Source: Actinomycetes bacterium (GTDB lineage: Bacteria > Actinomycetota > Acidimicrobiia > Acidimicrobiales > RAAP-2). Taken from it: a DNA stretch of 64,000 nucleotides. Under the pieces are notes generated by a model. The model saw nothing but the letters and a program-made list of their open reading frames with translations. It did not search any database and was not told the DNA's origin. A program made the translations under genes and the position numbers. Location: contig JAJZDI010000009.1 of assembly GCA_021806045.1 (NCBI GenBank), forward strand, positions 1 through 64,000. The letters are read 5' to 3'. Each line of letters starts with the position of its first letter. Position 1 is the stretch's first letter. Positions 3 to 57,599 of the stretch are shown here, piece after piece.

Positions 3-173
3 GTCGCCGTGGCGAACCGGATGCGCACGGGGACCGTGGGCGTGAACGGCGGCCTGTGGTACTCCCCGGACGTGCCCTTCGGCGGTTACCGCCAGTCGGG
101 CATCGGGCGGGAGATGGGCGTGGCCGGCTTCGAGGAGTACCTCGAGACCAAGTCGATCGCGGAGCCGGCGTGA
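3..173 (+). CDS. Aldehyde dehydrogenase, C-terminal end (partial)
   Basis: Only the last 56 residues lie in the window; the gene starts upstream. The segment carries the NAD-dependent aldehyde dehydrogenase C-terminal signature PFGGYRQSGIGREMG followed by an EYLETKSI tail, which is the usual family ending. The enzyme oxidises an aldehyde to the carboxylic acid in the cytoplasm; substrate cannot be told from the tail. Its TGA overlaps the GTG of the next gene (GTGA), so it is probably the upstream member of the catabolic operon that runs to 4.2 kb. A different aldehyde dehydrogenase begins at the other end of the window. Confidence 0.9.
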   Translation, partial: VAVANRMRTGTVGVNGGLWYSPDVPFGGYRQSGIGREMGVAGFEEYLETKSIAEPA

Positions 174-49379: not shown

Positions 49380-50148
49380 CGGTAGGTAGGGGCCTGGCCT
49401 GGTCGACCAACCACAGCGATCGGTCGACAGTCGACGGGTCCTCCTGGCTGTGGATCATCGAAGCACGGAAGCCGATCGGTGCGCGGGCCGTACCGCTACG
49501 TCCACCAGCACGCCGGGCGACGGCCGGCAGAGCGATCCGGTGCTCACCATCTCGCCACGGGCGCCGGACGCCGTGCGGATCGGCACGACGATCTCCCAGG
49601 CGTAGGCAGCGGCCGGGATCACGTTCGACGTGACCGGCGACGGATTGTACGACCGCGAGTCGATCCTCCCGGGCTTCGAGCTGCACATCGGGGCGATAAC
49701 CCCGTCAGCTGTGTCGGCGCTGCGATGGGGCTTCGCCCGGGATCGGTCAAGCAGGCGGTCGAGACGCGTGACGGGTTCGAGCTCGGCCTGCGGGTGCGCT
49801 GAGGTGCCACCGCGCCGGTCTGCTCACTGGTTGTCGATCGGCTCCCAGACGGGGAGCGCCCACGCGCTCGTGGGCGGGTCCGATCCGTTCCCCACCGACT
49901 GATACTGCCGACTCCGGCGGACGGGTGACGCACGTAGGCAGACGGGTGATGCGCGTACTTGTCCGTCTCGTTGGTCATCGTTGGCCATCGCATGGGTGCG
50001 TGTGAAGGAGGCGGCTCGAAGTTGTCCGGCCGCCCATGGGATCGCGCCAACCTCGTCGTTACCGTTCATCGAAGGCCCCTCGCCCGCGTGCACATGCGCA
50101 CCGAGACCGGCGGGAGGTGTCCATGGAGGCGAACGGAAGGTGGCAGCC
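49380..50148 (+). other. Gene-poor stretch with degenerate coding signal
   Basis: No intact gene recognised in about 770 bases. One plus-strand reading looks coding over about 49605-49700 (ITFDVTGDGLYDRESILPGF), but has an in-frame TAG just upstream, and the G/C-rich third-position signal moves to another frame near 49725-49802. This suggests a decayed gene. The family is not recognised. Confidence 0.3.
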
Positions 50149-53100
50149 ATGAGCCGACACAGCGGCATCGACGGTGCAGGCGCGATCGGGAGCAGGCGGC
50201 GGCGCCGATCCCGCATGCTGGCCGGAATGCTGCTGGGCCTGCCGAGCCTGGCCGCCTTGGCCGCCGGTGGGACCCCGGCGCAGGCGGCGACGGAGACGTT
50301 CACCTTCACCACGCCGGGGGAGACGGCGTGGACCGTTCCCGCCGGCGCGACCTCACTGCAGGTGACAGTGGTGGGTGCGGCCGGTTCGCCGTTCAACGGC
50401 GGTGGAAGTCCTTCGGCACCATCGGGTTCCGGCGCGGATGTGCAGGCCGTCGTGCCGGTGCCGTCCCAGCCCACGTTGTACATCGAGGTGGGCGGCACGA
50501 ACGGGGTCAATGGCGGCGGAATCTCGGCAGCCGCGGCCAACGGCGGCGGTGCATCCGACATCCAGACGTGCTCGGTGGCGGTACCGACCTGTGCCGACAC
50601 GGCTGTCCCCGGTACCGACCCTCGGCTGGTGGTGGCGGGTGGAGGCGGTGGCGGCGGTGAGGACCCGAACGGTGTCGCCACCGGTGGTGGTCCTGGCGGC
50701 AATGCGGGCACTGCCGGCTCGGTCGTGACCTCGGGCAGCGGCGGAGCCGGCGTCGACGTGCCGCCTGGTGGGACAGGGGGGCCCTCGGGTTACACGCAGA
50801 CCACCGGTACCGCAGGCGCAGTCGGGCCGGGCAGTCCCGACTGCACGACGGGAGCCGGCGGCGCGGGCCTGCCGGGTGCCGGCGGCGCCGGCGGGGATGA
50901 GAACGGTGCCAACAGCGGCGGCGGTGGTGGTGGCGGCTGGGTCGGTGGTTCAGGAGGTGGGACCGGCAGCGGGGTCACCGGGTGTGGCTACTCAACGGGC
51001 GCCGGCGGCGGTGGCGGCGCTGGCCTGAGCTACATCGAGAGCGCTGCCACTGCGTTCTCGGCAGGGCCGGCCATCGGCATCCCCGCCGAAGTGACGATCA
51101 CGGTGACGTTCCCGCCGGCCATCACGTCGGCCGCGTCGACGACGTTCACCACCGGTGCGGCGGGCTCGTTCACGGTGACGACCACCGGTTCGCCGACGCC
51201 TGCCATCGGCGAGAGCGGACCGCTCCCCACAGGCGTCACGTTCGTCGACAACGGAAACGGAACGGCCACCCTGTCCGGCACCCCGGCAACGGGGACCGAG
51301 GGGACGTACCCCATCACCATCACGGCTGCCAACGGTGTCGGCCCGTCGGTCAGCCAGAACTTCGTCCTCACCGTCGACCAGGCGCCGGCCATCACGTCGG
51401 CGGCGTCGACGACGTTCACCACCGGGTCGGCAGGCACGTTCACGGTGACGGCGACCGGCTCGCCGACGCCGTCGTTCGCTGAATCGGGCACCCTGCCCTC
51501 GGGCGTCACGTTCACCGACAACGGCGACGGGACGGCCACCCTGGCCGGTACCCCGGCGGCGGGCACGGGGGGCTCCTACACGATCACCATCGTCGCCAGC
51601 AACGGGGCTGGCTCGTCGGCCACCCAGACGTTCACGTTGACCGTCGACGAGCCACCGGCCATCACGTCGGCCTCGTCGACGACGTTCACCGCGGGGTCGG
51701 CAGGCACCTTCACAGTGACGGCCACCGGGTTCCCGACCCCGTCGTTGGGTGAATCGGGAACGCTCCCCACCGGTGTCAACTTCACCGACAACGGCAACGG
51801 GACGGCCACCCTGGCCGGCACGCCGGCAACGGGGACCGAGGGAACGTACCCCATCACCATTACGGCGACCAACGGCATCGGCCCGTCGGCCGGCCAGAGC
51901 TTCACCCTCACCGTCGACCAGGCACCGGCCATCACGTCGGCGGCGTCGACGACGTTCACCGCGGGGACGGCAGGCACCTTCACGGTGACGGCGACGGGCA
52001 ACCCGACACCTTCCCTGGCCGAGAGCGGAGCCCTGCCCTCGGGCGTCACCTTCATCGACAACGGCAACGGGACGGCCACCCTGGCCGGTACGCCAGCAAC
52101 GGGGACGGAGGGTGCCCACGTGCTCACCATCGTCGCCAGCAACGGGGCGGGCTCGTCGGCCACCCAGACGTTCACGTTGACCATCGACCAGGCACCGACC
52201 ATCACGTCGGCTGCCTCGAGGACGTTCACCACCGGGTCGGCGGGTACCTTCACGGTGACGGCTACCGGGTTCCCGGCGCCGTCGCTGGGTGAATCGGGTG
52301 CGCTCCCAACCGGCGTCACCTTCACCGACAACGGCAACGGGACGGCCACCCTGGCCGGCACCCCGGCGGCGGGTACGGGCGGCACCTACACGGTCACCAT
52401 CGTCGCCAGCAACGGGGCGGGCTCGTCGGCCACCCAGACGTTCACGTTGGCTATCGACCAGGCGCCGGCCGTATCGTCGGCTGCCTCGACGACGTTCACC
52501 ACCGGGTCGGCGGGCACCTTCACGGTGACGGCAACCGGGTTCCCGGCGGCGTCGCTGGGTGAATCGGGAACGCTCCCAACCGGCGTCACCTTCACCGACA
52601 ACGGCAACGGGACGGCCACCCTGGCCGGCACCCCGGCGAGCGGGACCGGGGGGACATACCCCATCACCATCACGGCGACCAACGGCGTCGGCTCCCCGGC
52701 CAACCAGAGCTTCACCCTCACCGTCGACCAGCCACCGGCCATCACGTCGGCTCCCTCGACGACCTTCACCGCGGGGACGGCGGGCACCTTCACGTTGAGG
52801 GCAACCGGGTTCCCAACGCCTGCGCTGGGTGAATCGGGAACGCTCCCCACCGGCGTCACCTTCACCGACAACGGCAACGGGACGGCCACCCTGGCCGGCA
52901 CCCCGGCGACCGGGACCGGGGGGACACACGTGCTCACCTTCATCGCCGGCAACGGGTCGGGCTCGTCGGCCACCCAGACGTTCACGTTGACCATCGACGC
53001 GGCGCCAGCCATCACCAGCGCCCCATCGGTGGTGTTCACGATCGGCATGTCCGGCTCGTTCACGGTGACGACCACCGGGTTCCCGGCACCGACATCGAGC

Positions 53101-54033
53101 GAATCAGGTGCCCTCCCCTCGGGTGTCACCTTCACCGACAACGGCAACGGGACAGCCACACTGGCCGGCACGCCGGCGGTCGGCGCCAGCGGAACCTACC
53201 CACTGTCCCTCACCGCAACGAACGGTGCCGGTACCGCGGCGACGCAGGCGTTCACCTTGACGGTGGATCCGAAGGGCGGCTTCGTGGTCGCAAGTTCGGA
53301 TGGCGAGGCCGCCGCGTTCGGTGGCGCCAGCAGCCACGGATCGTTCGCACCGGGCGCCGGCGTGCACGACGTGGTCGGCGTCGCGTCCACGCCCGACGGT
53401 GGCGGCTACTGGTTGGCCGGTGCTGACGGTGGTGTGTTCTCTTTCGGTGACGCGCCCTTCCGGGGTTCGCTGCCCGGCGCCGGGATCACCCCCGCGGCCC
53501 CGATCGTCGGCATCGCGTCGACGGCCGACGGTGGTGGCTACTGGTTGGTCGGGGCGGACGGCGGCATCTTCGCCTTCGGCGATGCCCGGTACTTCGGATC
53601 ACTGCCGGGAGCCGGGATCACCCCCGCTGCCCCGGTCGTGGGCATGGCCGTCACCCCCGACGGTGGCGGCTACTGGCTGGTCGGCGCCGACGGTGGCGTG
53701 TTCTCCTTCGGCGACGCCACGTTCCACGGGGCGGCGAGCACGTACCACCTGCAGAAGCCCATCGTCTCGATCACCACCGACTGGCAGACCGGCGGTTACT
53801 GGCTGGCAGCTGCGGACGGCGGCGTGTTCTCGTTCCATGCGCCGTTCGAGGGATCGGTGGCCGGTCTGGCCTCCTCCGATGTGGTGGGCATGGCGTCGAC
53901 CCCCGACGCGCACGGCTACTGGCTGGTGACAGCGGACGGCGAGGTGTTCCCCCTCGGCGATGCCGGGACGAGCGCAGGCCTGCGATCCGATGGCCTCGCC
54001 AACACGGTCGGCATCTCCTCGAGCGCACCATGA
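50149..54033 (+). CDS. Giant secreted protein: Gly-rich domain, eight Ig-like repeats, propeller-like repeats
   Basis: 1294 residues. Signal peptide RRRRRSRMLAGMLLGLPSLAALAAG...AQA; a Gly-rich surface domain (about 45-320, TFTTPGETAWTVPAGATSLQV then GGGGGG blocks); eight 90-residue putative Ig-like repeats (PAITSAASTTFTTGSAGTFTV ... SATQTFTLTVD), each exactly 270 bp from 51116 to about 53275; then six repeats of 40-44 residues (YWLVGADGGVFSFGDA). Probably extracellular adhesin or wall-associated. ATG with GGAAGG eight bases upstream. No LPxTG-type anchor seen. Confidence 0.87.
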   Translation: MSRHSGIDGAGAIGSRRRRRSRMLAGMLLGLPSLAALAAGGTPAQAATETFTFTTPGETAWTVPAGATSLQVTVVGAAGSPFNGGGSPSAPSGSGADVQAVVPVPSQPTLYIEVGGTNGVNGGGISAAAANGGGASDIQTCSVAVPTCADTAVPGTDPRLVVAGGGGGGGEDPNGVATGGGPGGNAGTAGSVVTSGSGGAGVDVPPGGTGGPSGYTQTTGTAGAVGPGSPDCTTGAGGAGLPGAGGAGGDENGANSGGGGGGGWVGGSGGGTGSGVTGCGYSTGAGGGGGAGLSYIESAATAFSAGPAIGIPAEVTITVTFPPAITSAASTTFTTGAAGSFTVTTTGSPTPAIGESGPLPTGVTFVDNGNGTATLSGTPATGTEGTYPITITAANGVGPSVSQNFVLTVDQAPAITSAASTTFTTGSAGTFTVTATGSPTPSFAESGTLPSGVTFTDNGDGTATLAGTPAAGTGGSYTITIVASNGAGSSATQTFTLTVDEPPAITSASSTTFTAGSAGTFTVTATGFPTPSLGESGTLPTGVNFTDNGNGTATLAGTPATGTEGTYPITITATNGIGPSAGQSFTLTVDQAPAITSAASTTFTAGTAGTFTVTATGNPTPSLAESGALPSGVTFIDNGNGTATLAGTPATGTEGAHVLTIVASNGAGSSATQTFTLTIDQAPTITSAASRTFTTGSAGTFTVTATGFPAPSLGESGALPTGVTFTDNGNGTATLAGTPAAGTGGTYTVTIVASNGAGSSATQTFTLAIDQAPAVSSAASTTFTTGSAGTFTVTATGFPAASLGESGTLPTGVTFTDNGNGTATLAGTPASGTGGTYPITITATNGVGSPANQSFTLTVDQPPAITSAPSTTFTAGTAGTFTLRATGFPTPALGESGTLPTGVTFTDNGNGTATLAGTPATGTGGTHVLTFIAGNGSGSSATQTFTLTIDAAPAITSAPSVVFTIGMSGSFTVTTTGFPAPTSSESGALPSGVTFTDNGNGTATLAGTPAVGASGTYPLSLTATNGAGTAATQAFTLTVDPKGGFVVASSDGEAAAFGGASSHGSFAPGAGVHDVVGVASTPDGGGYWLAGADGGVFSFGDAPFRGSLPGAGITPAAPIVGIASTADGGGYWLVGADGGIFAFGDARYFGSLPGAGITPAAPVVGMAVTPDGGGYWLVGADGGVFSFGDATFHGAASTYHLQKPIVSITTDWQTGGYWLAAADGGVFSFHAPFEGSVAGLASSDVVGMASTPDAHGYWLVTADGEVFPLGDAGTSAGLRSDGLANTVGISSSAP
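51116..53275 (+). repeat. Eight tandem 270-bp Ig-like repeats without indels
   Basis: The unit start (CATCACGTCGG or a variant) recurs at 51120, 51390, 51660, 51930, 52200, 52470, 52740 and 53010, exactly 270 bp apart. Long stretches such as GACAACGGCAACGGGACGGC are identical between units. Confidence 0.97.
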
Positions 54034-54092: not shown

Positions 54093-54350
54093 TCAGGCGG
54101 CCTCGCCGACGCACCAGTCCGCTTCGCCCCTCGTGTGGTGGTCCCCGGGGTCGTCGGTGCCGTCGCTGGTCCCGCTCTCGGCCGGGTTGGCCGACTCGGC
54201 CGTGCGCGCCGACGCCGCAGACGGGTTGCCCCTGCCCCGCCGGCAGACGGCGCACTGGTTGTTCCACTCGTGGGTGGTCATGGTCGGGGTCCTTCCTCGG
54301 TTGCTCGGGTTGCTGGTCGTTGGTCTTGTCGTGCTGCTGGTCGTGGGCAT
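54093..54350 (-). CDS. Small Cys-containing protein, unknown function
   Basis: 85 residues. A Thr/Ser/Pro-rich start, then MTTHEWNNQCAVCRRGRGNP with C-x2-C, a Ser/Ala/Asp-rich region and a final Cys (ADWCVGEAA). No family recognised. ATG 54350 follows GGGAGGAG by five bases; a second in-frame ATG (54281) also follows GAGGAAGGA, giving a 62-residue form. It lies downstream of a U-tailed terminator that ends the 55-residue ORF, an attenuator-like layout. Confidence 0.5.
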   Translation of the reverse strand: MPTTSSTTRPTTSNPSNRGRTPTMTTHEWNNQCAVCRRGRGNPSAASARTAESANPAESGTSDGTDDPGDHHTRGEADWCVGEAA

Positions 54351-54391
54351 GGGTGCTCCTCCCTTCGTTGAATTGGTCCCGGAAAACACAA

Positions 54392-54414
54392 GAGCCGCTC
54401 CGGAGGAGCGGCTC
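54392..54414 (-). terminator. Rho-independent terminator with U-tract (minus strand)
   Basis: GAGCCGCTCC/GGAGCGGCTC forms a perfect 10-bp stem with a 3-base loop. Read on the minus strand it is followed by TTGTGTTTT, the only U-rich tailed hairpin seen in the window. It ends the 55-residue ORF and lies 42 bases before the 85-residue gene. Confidence 0.8.
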
Positions 54415-54445
54415 GGTGAGATCAGGATCCAGGTTGTCTGGTCGA

Positions 54446-54613
54446 TCAGGTCACCGGGCCGGCTCCCTTGAGGGATGCGGTCGAAATGACGGCTACGGCG
54501 CCCGATGCGGACACCGCAGCGTCTGCTGCTACGTCGGCGGCTGCGATGGCCGCCAGGGCGCGCGCCGACGATGCACGGAGGTGCATCATGTGGTCGGCGG
54601 GCCGCATCGACAT
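54446..54613 (-). CDS. 55-residue leaderless Ala-rich peptide
   Basis: ATG at 54613, stop at 54446. Begins MSMRPADHMMHLR, then an Ala/Val-rich helix-prone stretch (ALAAIAAADVAADAAVSA) and ends LKGAGPVT. No family recognised. Supported as a real gene by its setting: TTGCAT-16-TACACT promoter whose start falls one base before the ATG, and a U-tailed terminator 31 bases after the stop. Could be a leader peptide for the downstream gene or an independent small protein. Confidence 0.5.
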   Translation of the reverse strand: MSMRPADHMMHLRASSARALAAIAAADVAADAAVSASGAVAVISTASLKGAGPVT

Positions 54614-54620
54614 GGGGTCA

Positions 54621-54648
54621 AGTGTAGTACCTACCCGGCGGCATGCAA
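54621..54648 (-). promoter_or_regulatory. Promoter of the 55-residue ORF
   Basis: On the minus strand: TTGCAT (54648-54643), 16-base spacer, TACACT (54626-54621). Predicted start at 54614, one base before the ATG. Confidence 0.6.
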
Positions 54649-54666: not shown

Positions 54667-57435
54667 TCACGCCGGACCGGACCCGGCCACGGCCCGGTCG
54701 GGAGACACCTTCCGGACGTCGACGCGGATCATGCGGTCGAACTGGACCGGCTGCCACTGGTTGGGCGTGAAGCGCAGGTGGCCCCAGCCGTCCGCCAGGT
54801 GCAGCCACTTCACCATCCCGGGCTCGATCACGGTGCCGTCGTCCCAGCGCTCGAACCCGTAGGGCTCCCATGCGGCGTAGAGGATGACCTGTCCGGGACG
54901 CGGCCCGGTGGCCACACGGGCGTGCACGGTGAAGGTTCCGAGGTCGTTCGTCACCTCCACCTCGTCGTCGTCGGCGATGCCGATCGCGGCGGCGTCACGG
55001 GGGTTCATCACCAGCGTCGGATGGCCCCGGGTCGTCTCCAGCATGAGGGGGTTGGTGGCGTTGCAGGCATGGATGGACCAGCGGGGGTGCCCCCCGGTGA
55101 GGACATAGGGGTGGTGGCCCCCCATGGCGGGGGCGTCCTTGTGGACGGGCAGTTCCTCGCCCGCCTCGAGGAACCACGGGTGGTCGACGTAGAACGTCGC
55201 CCGGCCGGTGGTGGTGGCGTAGGGCACCCCGCCCTCCACGTGCCACCGGAAGGCGCTGAAGGTCTCGTCGGAGCGGATCTCCGAGCCGACGAGCCGACCG
55301 GTGGGGAACACACCGTTGCCCCGGGCCGGTGCGAAACCCCGCTCCCGCAGGGTGGTGAGCGACAGGTCCTCGTCGAACACGCCGGCCAGAGCGCTGTCGC
55401 GCACCAGCACGTCGAGGAGGGCCTCGTCCGATCGCAGCCGGCCGTCCCGGTGCATGACCTTGCCCGCGTCGCCCAGGGGGTGGGGGGTGGCCCGACCCAC
55501 CATGCTGTCCGCCAGGCCCCGGACCCGGGCCCGCTCGGCAACCGCGTCGGCGATGTCGCAGAAGATGCGCCAGTCCGAACGGGCCTCGCCCGCCGGCTCG
55601 TTCACCTGGTCCGAGAAGGCGAGGTCGAGCGAGTGGGCGATGGGGTACTGGAGGTTGACCCGTTCGGTGTCGTAGGCGGCGGGCAGGAGGATGTCGGCGT
55701 GCATGCCCGCCCCGTTCATGCGCTGGTCGATGGAGACGACGAGCGAGAGCTCGGGCCACAGGTGGCGGAGCAGCATGCGCCGGCCCCCACGGGTACGCCG
55801 CAGGGTGCTCGTCCCGGGCTGGAAGAGGACCCGCGGCGTGACGTCGGGAGCGGGCCGCATGTAGGGCGCCCACGTGGTGCGGGCCTCGGCGATGTAGTCG
55901 GCCATGGGGCGGGGCGAGTCGCCCCAGTCCTGCCTGCTCCAGATGTCGCCGTAGCCGCAGTGGTCGAGCCAGTAGAAGAAGGGCGGGGCGGTGGTGGACG
56001 TGGCCGCCACCGAGGACATGAAGTCCCAGAAGTCCGGCCGGGCCAGTGGGGGAGGGACGCCCGTGTCGGGGTCGGGCTCACCGAAGAGGGCGCGCGCCAT
56101 CGAGAACACCGCCTCGGCACCCTCGATCCCGCCGGTGCTCATCTGCTGGGCCAGTGACCCGTCGAACGGCATCACCGCATAGGTGTCGTGACCGCGGCCC
56201 TGGCCACCCCAGTTGCCGGTCAGGGCGAGGAGCAGGTTCATCGACCGCTCCATGAGGTCGCCGTGGTAGTGCTTCGGCGTGTCGAAGCCCTCCACGATCT
56301 TCGTGCGCTTCGACGCCACCTTGCGGGCCAGCGTGCGGATGGTGTCGGGGTGTACCCCGCAGGCGGCCGAGGCCGCCTCCGGGTCGTAGGGGGCGAGGCG
56401 CTTGACCATCAGCTCGAACGCCGGCACCAACTCCACTCGGGTGCCGTCTCCCACCTCCACCGTGTACCGGCCCCGGAGCGCCGGTTGGTACGCCAATCGC
56501 AGCGTGTCCTGGCTGGCCTCGACGGGGCCCGACGCCGGGTCCCAGTGGAAGAACCCGTACTCGCTCCCCCCTTCGACCAGGTCCGACCGGCGGAGCAGGC
56601 GGCGGGTGTCGGTGCGGACGAGCAGCGACAGGTCGGTCTGGGTCGACACGAACGCCTCGTCCACCAGCCCCTCGTCGACGATGACCCGGCACATGGCCAG
56701 GGCCAGGGCGGCATCGGTGCCGGGGACGACGGGCACGAAGGTGTCGCAGTGGGGCGCGGACGGGCTGTAGTCGGGGGCGATGAGGGCCACCTCGGCCCCG
56801 GCGTACCGGGCCTCGGTCAGGTAGTGGAAGTAGGGGATGCGGCTGTAGGCCGGGTTGCAGTGCCACACCAGGACCAGCTCGGCGTGGAAGGTGTCGTCGG
56901 AGGACGAGCCGCCGGCGATGTGGCCGAAGGTGAGGTAGTGGCCGAGGGGGACGTCGTTGACGGTCGAGATGCTGTCGAGCGACACGGCGCCCAGGGCCGA
57001 GGCCAGGCCCATGTGGCCGGCGATGGACAGCATGCCGCCCTCGGCGCTCTCGTCGATCACCACCGCGTCCGGCCCGGACTCCTCGATGGCGTCGAGCACG
57101 GCGTCGGCGATCTCGGTCAGGGCGTCGTCCCAGGTGATCCGCTCCCACTGTCCCGATCCGCGTTCCCCCACCCGGCGCATGGGGTGGAGGAGGCGGTCGT
57201 CGCCGGTGAGCTGGCGGCTCCAGGCCGCACCCTTCTGGCACCCCATGGGATTGCGGTCGGGAACGCCGGGCTCGGTGGCCGGGTACGTGCCGGACTGCTC
57301 CTCCCAGCGCACCGACGAGTCGCCGGCGAACACCCGGTAGGTGCAACTGGAGAGGCAGTTGGCGCAGTGCGTTCCCCAGGCGACGCGTTTCCACGAGAAG
57401 CGCTGGCGGTAGCGGTCCTCGCTGGGCGTGGTCAT
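54667..57435 (-). CDS. Molybdopterin oxidoreductase, type II DMSO-reductase family (NarG-like), orphan
   Basis: 922 residues. N-terminal 4Fe-4S site H23-x3-C27-x3-C31-x34-C66 has exactly the spacing of nitrate reductase NarG, so it is type II rather than formate-dehydrogenase type. The Mo-bis-MGD domains follow, then a C-terminal molydopterin-binding domain (GGHPRWSIHACNATNP). The NarG segment with the molybdenum-ligand Asp (TPDAHFFTE) reads IPYFHYLTEARY, so that Asp is Tyr. No Tat signal and no electron-transfer partner genes: probably cytoplasmic with unknown partner. ATG 57435 follows GAGGAG by five bases. Confidence 0.9.
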   Translation of the reverse strand: MTTPSEDRYRQRFSWKRVAWGTHCANCLSSCTYRVFAGDSSVRWEEQSGTYPATEPGVPDRNPMGCQKGAAWSRQLTGDDRLLHPMRRVGERGSGQWERITWDDALTEIADAVLDAIEESGPDAVVIDESAEGGMLSIAGHMGLASALGAVSLDSISTVNDVPLGHYLTFGHIAGGSSSDDTFHAELVLVWHCNPAYSRIPYFHYLTEARYAGAEVALIAPDYSPSAPHCDTFVPVVPGTDAALALAMCRVIVDEGLVDEAFVSTQTDLSLLVRTDTRRLLRRSDLVEGGSEYGFFHWDPASGPVEASQDTLRLAYQPALRGRYTVEVGDGTRVELVPAFELMVKRLAPYDPEAASAACGVHPDTIRTLARKVASKRTKIVEGFDTPKHYHGDLMERSMNLLLALTGNWGGQGRGHDTYAVMPFDGSLAQQMSTGGIEGAEAVFSMARALFGEPDPDTGVPPPLARPDFWDFMSSVAATSTTAPPFFYWLDHCGYGDIWSRQDWGDSPRPMADYIAEARTTWAPYMRPAPDVTPRVLFQPGTSTLRRTRGGRRMLLRHLWPELSLVVSIDQRMNGAGMHADILLPAAYDTERVNLQYPIAHSLDLAFSDQVNEPAGEARSDWRIFCDIADAVAERARVRGLADSMVGRATPHPLGDAGKVMHRDGRLRSDEALLDVLVRDSALAGVFDEDLSLTTLRERGFAPARGNGVFPTGRLVGSEIRSDETFSAFRWHVEGGVPYATTTGRATFYVDHPWFLEAGEELPVHKDAPAMGGHHPYVLTGGHPRWSIHACNATNPLMLETTRGHPTLVMNPRDAAAIGIADDDEVEVTNDLGTFTVHARVATGPRPGQVILYAAWEPYGFERWDDGTVIEPGMVKWLHLADGWGHLRFTPNQWQPVQFDRMIRVDVRKVSPDRAVAGSGPA

Positions 57436-57599
57436 GTGGGCTCCTCGGCCGGTTCGCCCCATGTTGACACGGGGACAGCCGCGCCGTCCTGATGACGGTC
57501 GGGTCACGGGTCGCGCCAGACGTCTCGGTCCGGTCCCGCCGGAATACCGACGGGCGTTCGGCCCTGGCCGGGCCGGCGAAGACGACGTTCAATGCAGCC

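Follow-up and report, generated by a model that had tools for sequence, protein, structure and literature searches.

A unit on the minus strand of the window, the whole 64,000-nt stretch of DNA analysed here, probably acts as a translation-coupled transcription attenuator of a small protein of 52–62 amino acids, a reading to which we give a probability of roughly 83% from sequence comparison. Start spacing, reading frame, stop position, terminator and antiterminator are conserved by comparison, and since the arrangement recurs in related bacteria, the unit seems to be a genuine switch rather than a product of chance. From these sequences we infer termination, read-through and stalling, as well as the direction in which they would act. 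The unit provides a testable candidate attenuator in an actinobacterial lineage, and its switch and C-terminal tail jointly define an orphan small-protein family. Knowing the stall signal would reveal the role of the downstream protein.

Organization of the unit

The window, with a GC content of about 71%, belongs to a genome of 3.1 Mb in 43 contigs. From 54648 to 54093 of the minus strand, a promoter, a leader open reading frame (ORF1), a terminator and a small cysteine-containing protein (ORF2) follow one another. A preliminary description of this DNA had placed a TTGCAT-16-TACACT promoter, a leaderless 55-codon ORF, a terminator and a Shine-Dalgarno in series, and all of them are found in the sequence. 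The same description called the terminator the only U-tailed hairpin of the window; it is by far the strongest, but it is one of two matches (stem of at least 8, at least 5 T in 8). The features are listed below; G001 denotes the genus-mate of the window genome (G000) and g1 their genus.

54621-54648, minus strand: promoter, TTGCAT (54648-54643), 16-nt spacer, TACACT (54626-54621); from the sequence, with hexamers and spacing kept in G001
54446-54613, minus strand: ORF1, leaderless frame for a putative leader peptide, 55 codons and a TGA stop; ATG at 54613, 7 nt after the -10, stop at 54448-54446
54570-54587, minus strand: hairpin GATGCAC-loop-GTGCATC in early ORF1, also present in G001
54464-54475, minus strand: hairpin TCCC/GGGA, which may serve as an anti-antiterminator and reaches 10 bp in G001
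54451-54467, minus strand: predicted antiterminator 5′ strand, formed by the final ORF1 codons (folding and comparison)
54404-54419, minus strand: predicted antiterminator 3′ strand, overlapping the terminator 5′ arm (folding and comparison)
54415-54455, minus strand: hairpin GGTGA...TCACC from the ORF1 end to the terminator, spanning the ORF1 stop and forming the inner portion of the antiterminator
54383-54414, minus strand: intrinsic terminator, 10-bp stem (54414-54392) and U-rich tail TTGTGTTTT
54356-54363, minus strand: Shine-Dalgarno GGGAGGAG of the upstream ATG (54350), from the sequence
54291-54298, minus strand: Shine-Dalgarno GAGGAAGG of the second ATG (54281), from the sequence and relatives
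54093-54281, minus strand: ORF2, 62 aa ending in WCVGEAA, with its most likely true start at ATG 54281 (profile searches and alignment)
54093-54350, minus strand: ORF2 as first described, 85 aa from the upstream ATG (54350); its 23 additional codons show little conservation and have no match outside g1

In the mechanism that we propose, RNA polymerase would start at about 54614, and translation of ORF1 would begin right at the 5′ terminus of the transcript. The 3′-terminal 18–19 nt of ORF1 would form the antiterminator with the terminator 5′ arm and the sequence immediately ahead of it, giving read-through and production of ORF2. A ribosome at the ORF1 stop would cover the antiterminator strand, so that the terminator folds and transcription stops near 54383, while a ribosome stalled roughly 10 codons or more before the stop would leave that strand free, allowing the antiterminator to form and ORF2 to be transcribed.

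GCTCCTCC, in the terminator arm and loop (54409-54402), and GGAGGAGC, at the upstream Shine-Dalgarno (54362-54355), are complementary and may give g1 an additional level of control.

A small-protein family with a conserved C-terminal tail

A two-sequence profile of the ORF2 core, searched over 172 genomes of the family, matched 15 genomes, of which nine were kept; a nine-sequence ORF2 profile over 159 relatives matched 21 and 15 were kept. G066, among the six dropped from the two-sequence search, was regained with the nine-sequence profile, at a neighbouring position. The resulting members span six genera of one family: g1 (2 genomes), g16 (6), g5 (3), g3 (2), g2 (1) and g17 (1). DNA searches and single- and two-sequence searches had suggested an element confined to one genus, a view overturned by the family-wide profile. 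The search for the pair in related genomes that the preliminary description had proposed recovered ORF2 in 15 genomes and the leader with ORF1 in 13 of these, with both frames conserved beyond the genus. Profile matches in G018, G034, G065, G096, G132 and G202 were dropped as weak and lacking the CVG tail.

The C-terminus [LW]CVG[ED]AA-stop is shared by 14 of the 15 members, the exception being G066 (L112 1500-3171), where the ORF2 frame continues past SLCV into a long ORF without the CVGEAA end; this long frame is a fusion, a rearrangement or an assembly error. The protein measures 52–62 aa in the nine aligned members. The 85 residues first attributed to the window's ORF2 do not stand: relatives align at the second ATG (54281), which is therefore preferred as the start, and the product is probably 62 aa long. 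Its earlier presentation as a C-x2-C protein is accurate for g1, to which CxxC is limited, but the emphasis is unsupported, as the cysteine conserved in the alignment is the C-terminal one.

Comparison of the window genome with its genus-mate shows that ORF2 is coding. With numbering from the second ATG, residues 1-25 carry five synonymous and no non-synonymous codon changes, and residues 40-62 carry six and four; the linker that separates these two parts is variable (1 synonymous, 12 non-synonymous).

Neither product had been assigned to a recognised family, and the subsets searched here agree. No match was found in NCBIfam for ORF1 and ORF2 of G000, G001, G063 and G082, in PHROGs for those of G000 and G001, in PADLOC or Pfam for the nine ORF2 members, or in Pfam for ORF1 of G000 and G001. 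Viral and plasmid searches gave no match, and the string CVGEAA occurs in no paper of the literature searched. Predicted ORF2 structures had mean pLDDT values of 46.7 and 55.0, too poor for a structure search. Among selected neighbouring genes (transporters, SDR, acetyltransferase, thioesterase, peroxidase) no RiPP maturase was seen. We tentatively raise the possibility that the leader peptide is a dedicated sensor, stalling on a specific nascent-chain or translation-stress signal and not on amino-acid starvation, and that the 52–62-aa GDxH...G...CVGEAA-tail protein is a new secreted or modified peptide, or a metal- or thiol-binding regulator, made by members of this bacterial family only on that signal.

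A leaderless reading frame with constant geometry

The pattern TTGnnn-16..18-TAnnnT-4..9-ATG has a single match in the window on both strands (mean of 0.1 in 10 shuffles). In G001 the promoter keeps 11 of 12 hexamer letters and the 16-nt spacing, with 8 of the 16 spacer letters differing, and a -10 of the form TAnnnT was likewise found in the remaining units. A 55-codon ORF alone has little meaning, because such frames are common in the window (335 of 626 minus-strand ATGs reach that length). The position and sequence of ORF1 are, however, conserved in other genomes. In all 13 units with a clear terminator, ORF1 is 51–67 codons long and ends in a stop 33–35 nt ahead of the terminator stem. The start codon, which is ATG or GTG, lies 7 nt after TAnnnT in 11 of them, 8 nt in G071 and 6 or 8 nt in G002.

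In g16, ORF1 is coding, as judged from its substitutions. The last 31 codons (MAVSIAG...) contain 29 variable columns, distributed 4, 3 and 22 over the three codon positions, a bias reached by none of 20,000 permutations, and 17 codon columns vary only synonymously against 8 with an amino-acid change. Within g1, substitutions between the window genome and its genus-mate (9, 12 and 14 by codon position) carry no coding signature, and ORF1 GC3 is 0.78 and 0.72 in G000 and G001 versus 0.91–0.94 in two neighbouring genes. The g1 pair had suggested that ORF1 was non-coding, which the third-position bias overturned for g16. G001 nonetheless retains the leaderless ATG, the frame (with one 6-nt gap) and the stop, and Gly-Ala-Val at codons -18 to -16 is common to g1 and g5. 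No run or cluster of codons for one amino acid was found in ORF1, so classical amino-acid control is not indicated. In g16 and g5, ORF1 has a single Cys codon, 20 codons ahead of its stop; G000 has none.

Predicted mutually exclusive terminator and antiterminator

A clear leader and intrinsic terminator precede ORF2 in 13 of the 15 members. The two g3 members keep ORF2 (L114, L115), with a weak or absent terminator and, in G022, a leader ORF upstream; they were left out of the leader counts because they lack a clear terminator, and regulation may have changed in them.

The final 18–19 nt of ORF1 form two helices with the nucleotides that precede the terminator stem and with its 5′ arm. The 5′ strand of this antiterminator begins 18 nt before the ORF1 stop in 11 of the 13 units; in G071 it differs, starting 38 nt before the stop. 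When each unit's own ORF1 end was compared with 300 native 22-mers for energy and arm pairing, none of the 300 matched it in 12 of the 13 units, and G071 was not better than chance (55/300). ORF1 ends swapped between genera often pair as well as the unit's own, so this control is not discriminating. RNA cut before the terminator 3′ arm adopts the antiterminator fold in all nine aligned units, and of the antiterminator cells in the nine-sequence alignment 92.9% are paired, versus at most 63.5% in slid controls and 100% for the terminator.

Alignment columns 26, 87 and 94 change together from G-C-G to A-U-A. Column 87 is an arm base, with column 94 as its terminator partner and column 26 as its antiterminator partner, so that the arm base keeps both alternative partners. 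The upper helix holds a further compensatory change, CUCGACGG:CCGUCGAG in g16 versus CCUCAACGG:CCGUUGAGG in g2. Formal covariation is small, since the units fall into few lineages: one pair changed on both sides, which 195/500 and 221/500 shuffles reached, and the antiterminator covariation score was reached by 123/500. Within g1 the antiterminator is modest by a stricter measure (194 of 3000 native segments show at least the same gain), and for G001 101 of 300 shuffles were as good.

If a ribosome is placed at the ORF1 stop and only the RNA beyond it is left to fold, all 13 units form the terminator (structures read by eye). For G001 RNA extending to 6 nt past the U tail, blocking the 5′ side of the upstream hairpin favours the antiterminator (-44.9 vs -41.5 kcal/mol for the terminator), while with the same hairpin free the terminator wins (-55.0 vs -46.1 kcal/mol); when the RNA stops at the U tail, the terminator is favoured whether the hairpin is blocked or free. 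In G000 the two folds usually lie within a few kcal/mol, and the third, anti-antiterminator hairpin is clear only in G001. The preliminary description had offered a leader-peptide attenuator or a small-protein pair, an idea that the conservation of both frames and the antiterminator, and of the stop position in 13 of 13 units, supports.

The leader is also structured. It folds far better than shuffles in both G000 and G001 (z of about -5), and none of 120 random segments of the window has a z of -4 or below. Between the two genomes, a 140-nt block that starts in late ORF1 and extends across the terminator averages 96% column identity, and the first half of ORF1 is about 69% identical. A comparison of substitutions in paired and unpaired positions was not significant (p 0.15). 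This structure and the conserved block would suit a leader in which a metabolite, tRNA or protein acting on the structured 5′ part drives the terminator/antiterminator switch, with ORF1 translation incidental. We consider this improbable, because g16 shows coding selection on ORF1, the leader's upstream portion lacks conservation from one genus to another, the start and stop geometry is constant relative to the antiterminator, and no Rfam family or riboswitch scored above the gathering score for the leader RNA.

It is very unlikely that ORF1 belongs to an independent small RNA or small-peptide gene with ORF2 as a separate gene. The unit does have its own promoter and terminator, and in some g16 members ORF2 starts about 270–330 nt after the terminator start, leaving room for a promoter; yet neither G000 nor G001 has a TAnnnT -10 between terminator and ORF2, where ORF2 thus seems to need read-through. 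An independent gene, moreover, would not need pairing between the ORF1 end and the terminator arm, and the ORF1-terminator leader and ORF2 occur together in 13 of 15 members.

Several RNA-model matches were set aside: G220 and G408 for poor pairing in the alignments, G149 on its sequence alone, and G074 as coding sequence, which we take to be CysN-like. In G013 (L011 807-841) a near-identical terminator hairpin stands in a different setting, with a weak leader match.

Relation to known leader systems

The whiB7/wblC leader is reportedly the subject of Lee et al. 2022, and the cysteine-rich leaderless small ORFs of mycobacteria that of Canestrari 2020. The present unit has the elements of a uORF-dependent attenuator: a leader ORF translated in g16, an intrinsic terminator in 13 of 15 members and a putatively ribosome-masked antiterminator (doubtful in G071). 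ORF1 contains no control-codon cluster of the trp/ilv type and no Cys codon cluster like that of polycysteine leaderless uORFs, and ORF2 belongs to no known biosynthetic family.

In the excerpt of PMC13236596 used here, the ilvB1 leader of M. tuberculosis has a uORF with the branched-chain amino-acid codons LVVI and a biosynthetic operon downstream. As described in that excerpt, it shares with our unit a uORF, a mutually exclusive antiterminator and terminator, and masking of the antiterminator strand by a ribosome at the stop codon; it differs in that here no control codon is repeated and a small protein without known family follows. The same excerpt presents the whiB7/wblC leader, induced by ribosome stalling, as uORF-dependent transcription control in actinobacteria, which our unit resembles; its downstream gene is a WhiB regulator, whereas ORF2 is not WhiB by family search. 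Cysteine gene control by mycobacterial uORFs is termed translation attenuation there. The C. glutamicum ilvBNC attenuator, as covered by an excerpt of PMC11857589, likewise combines terminator, antiterminator and anti-antiterminator hairpins; it precedes an amino-acid biosynthesis operon, and here the third hairpin is clear only in G001. Like the mycobacterial uORFs in the portion of PMC4633059 consulted, ORF1 is a leaderless small ORF before a putatively regulated gene, but those are cysteine-rich, unlike ORF1 with its single Cys codon (g16, g5) or none (G000).

Genomic neighbourhood

In the window and in G001 the unit follows a molybdopterin oxidoreductase gene (window 54667-57507), whose best match is a DMSO-reductase type II model, below the curated cut-off. 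The genome contains three more paralogues of this gene that satisfy an E threshold of 1e-40. An ordinary terminator of the oxidoreductase gene accompanied by spurious ORFs might be imagined here, since long open frames are common in DNA of 71% GC. We regard this as next to negligible, and conservation refutes it: oxidoreductase orthologues in g3 (84–87% identical) have no similar unit downstream, and the unit adjoins other genes in g16, g5, g2 and g17.

The units of g16 and g5 commonly lie between a divergent gene of about 432 aa and a convergent gene of about 640 aa, G066 being different. In G063 (g16) the flanking genes encode an MFS transporter and an MsbA-like ABC transporter, and the ABC gene also adjoins ORF2 in g3 (family from G022, size from G003); g2 and g17 have different neighbours. 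A link of the unit to exporters is only a lead. In the window, the convergent gene at 49981-54033 ends in a repeat (GYWLVGADGGVFSFGDA-like; window 53410-53718) with 146 genome-wide matches at dozens of loci.
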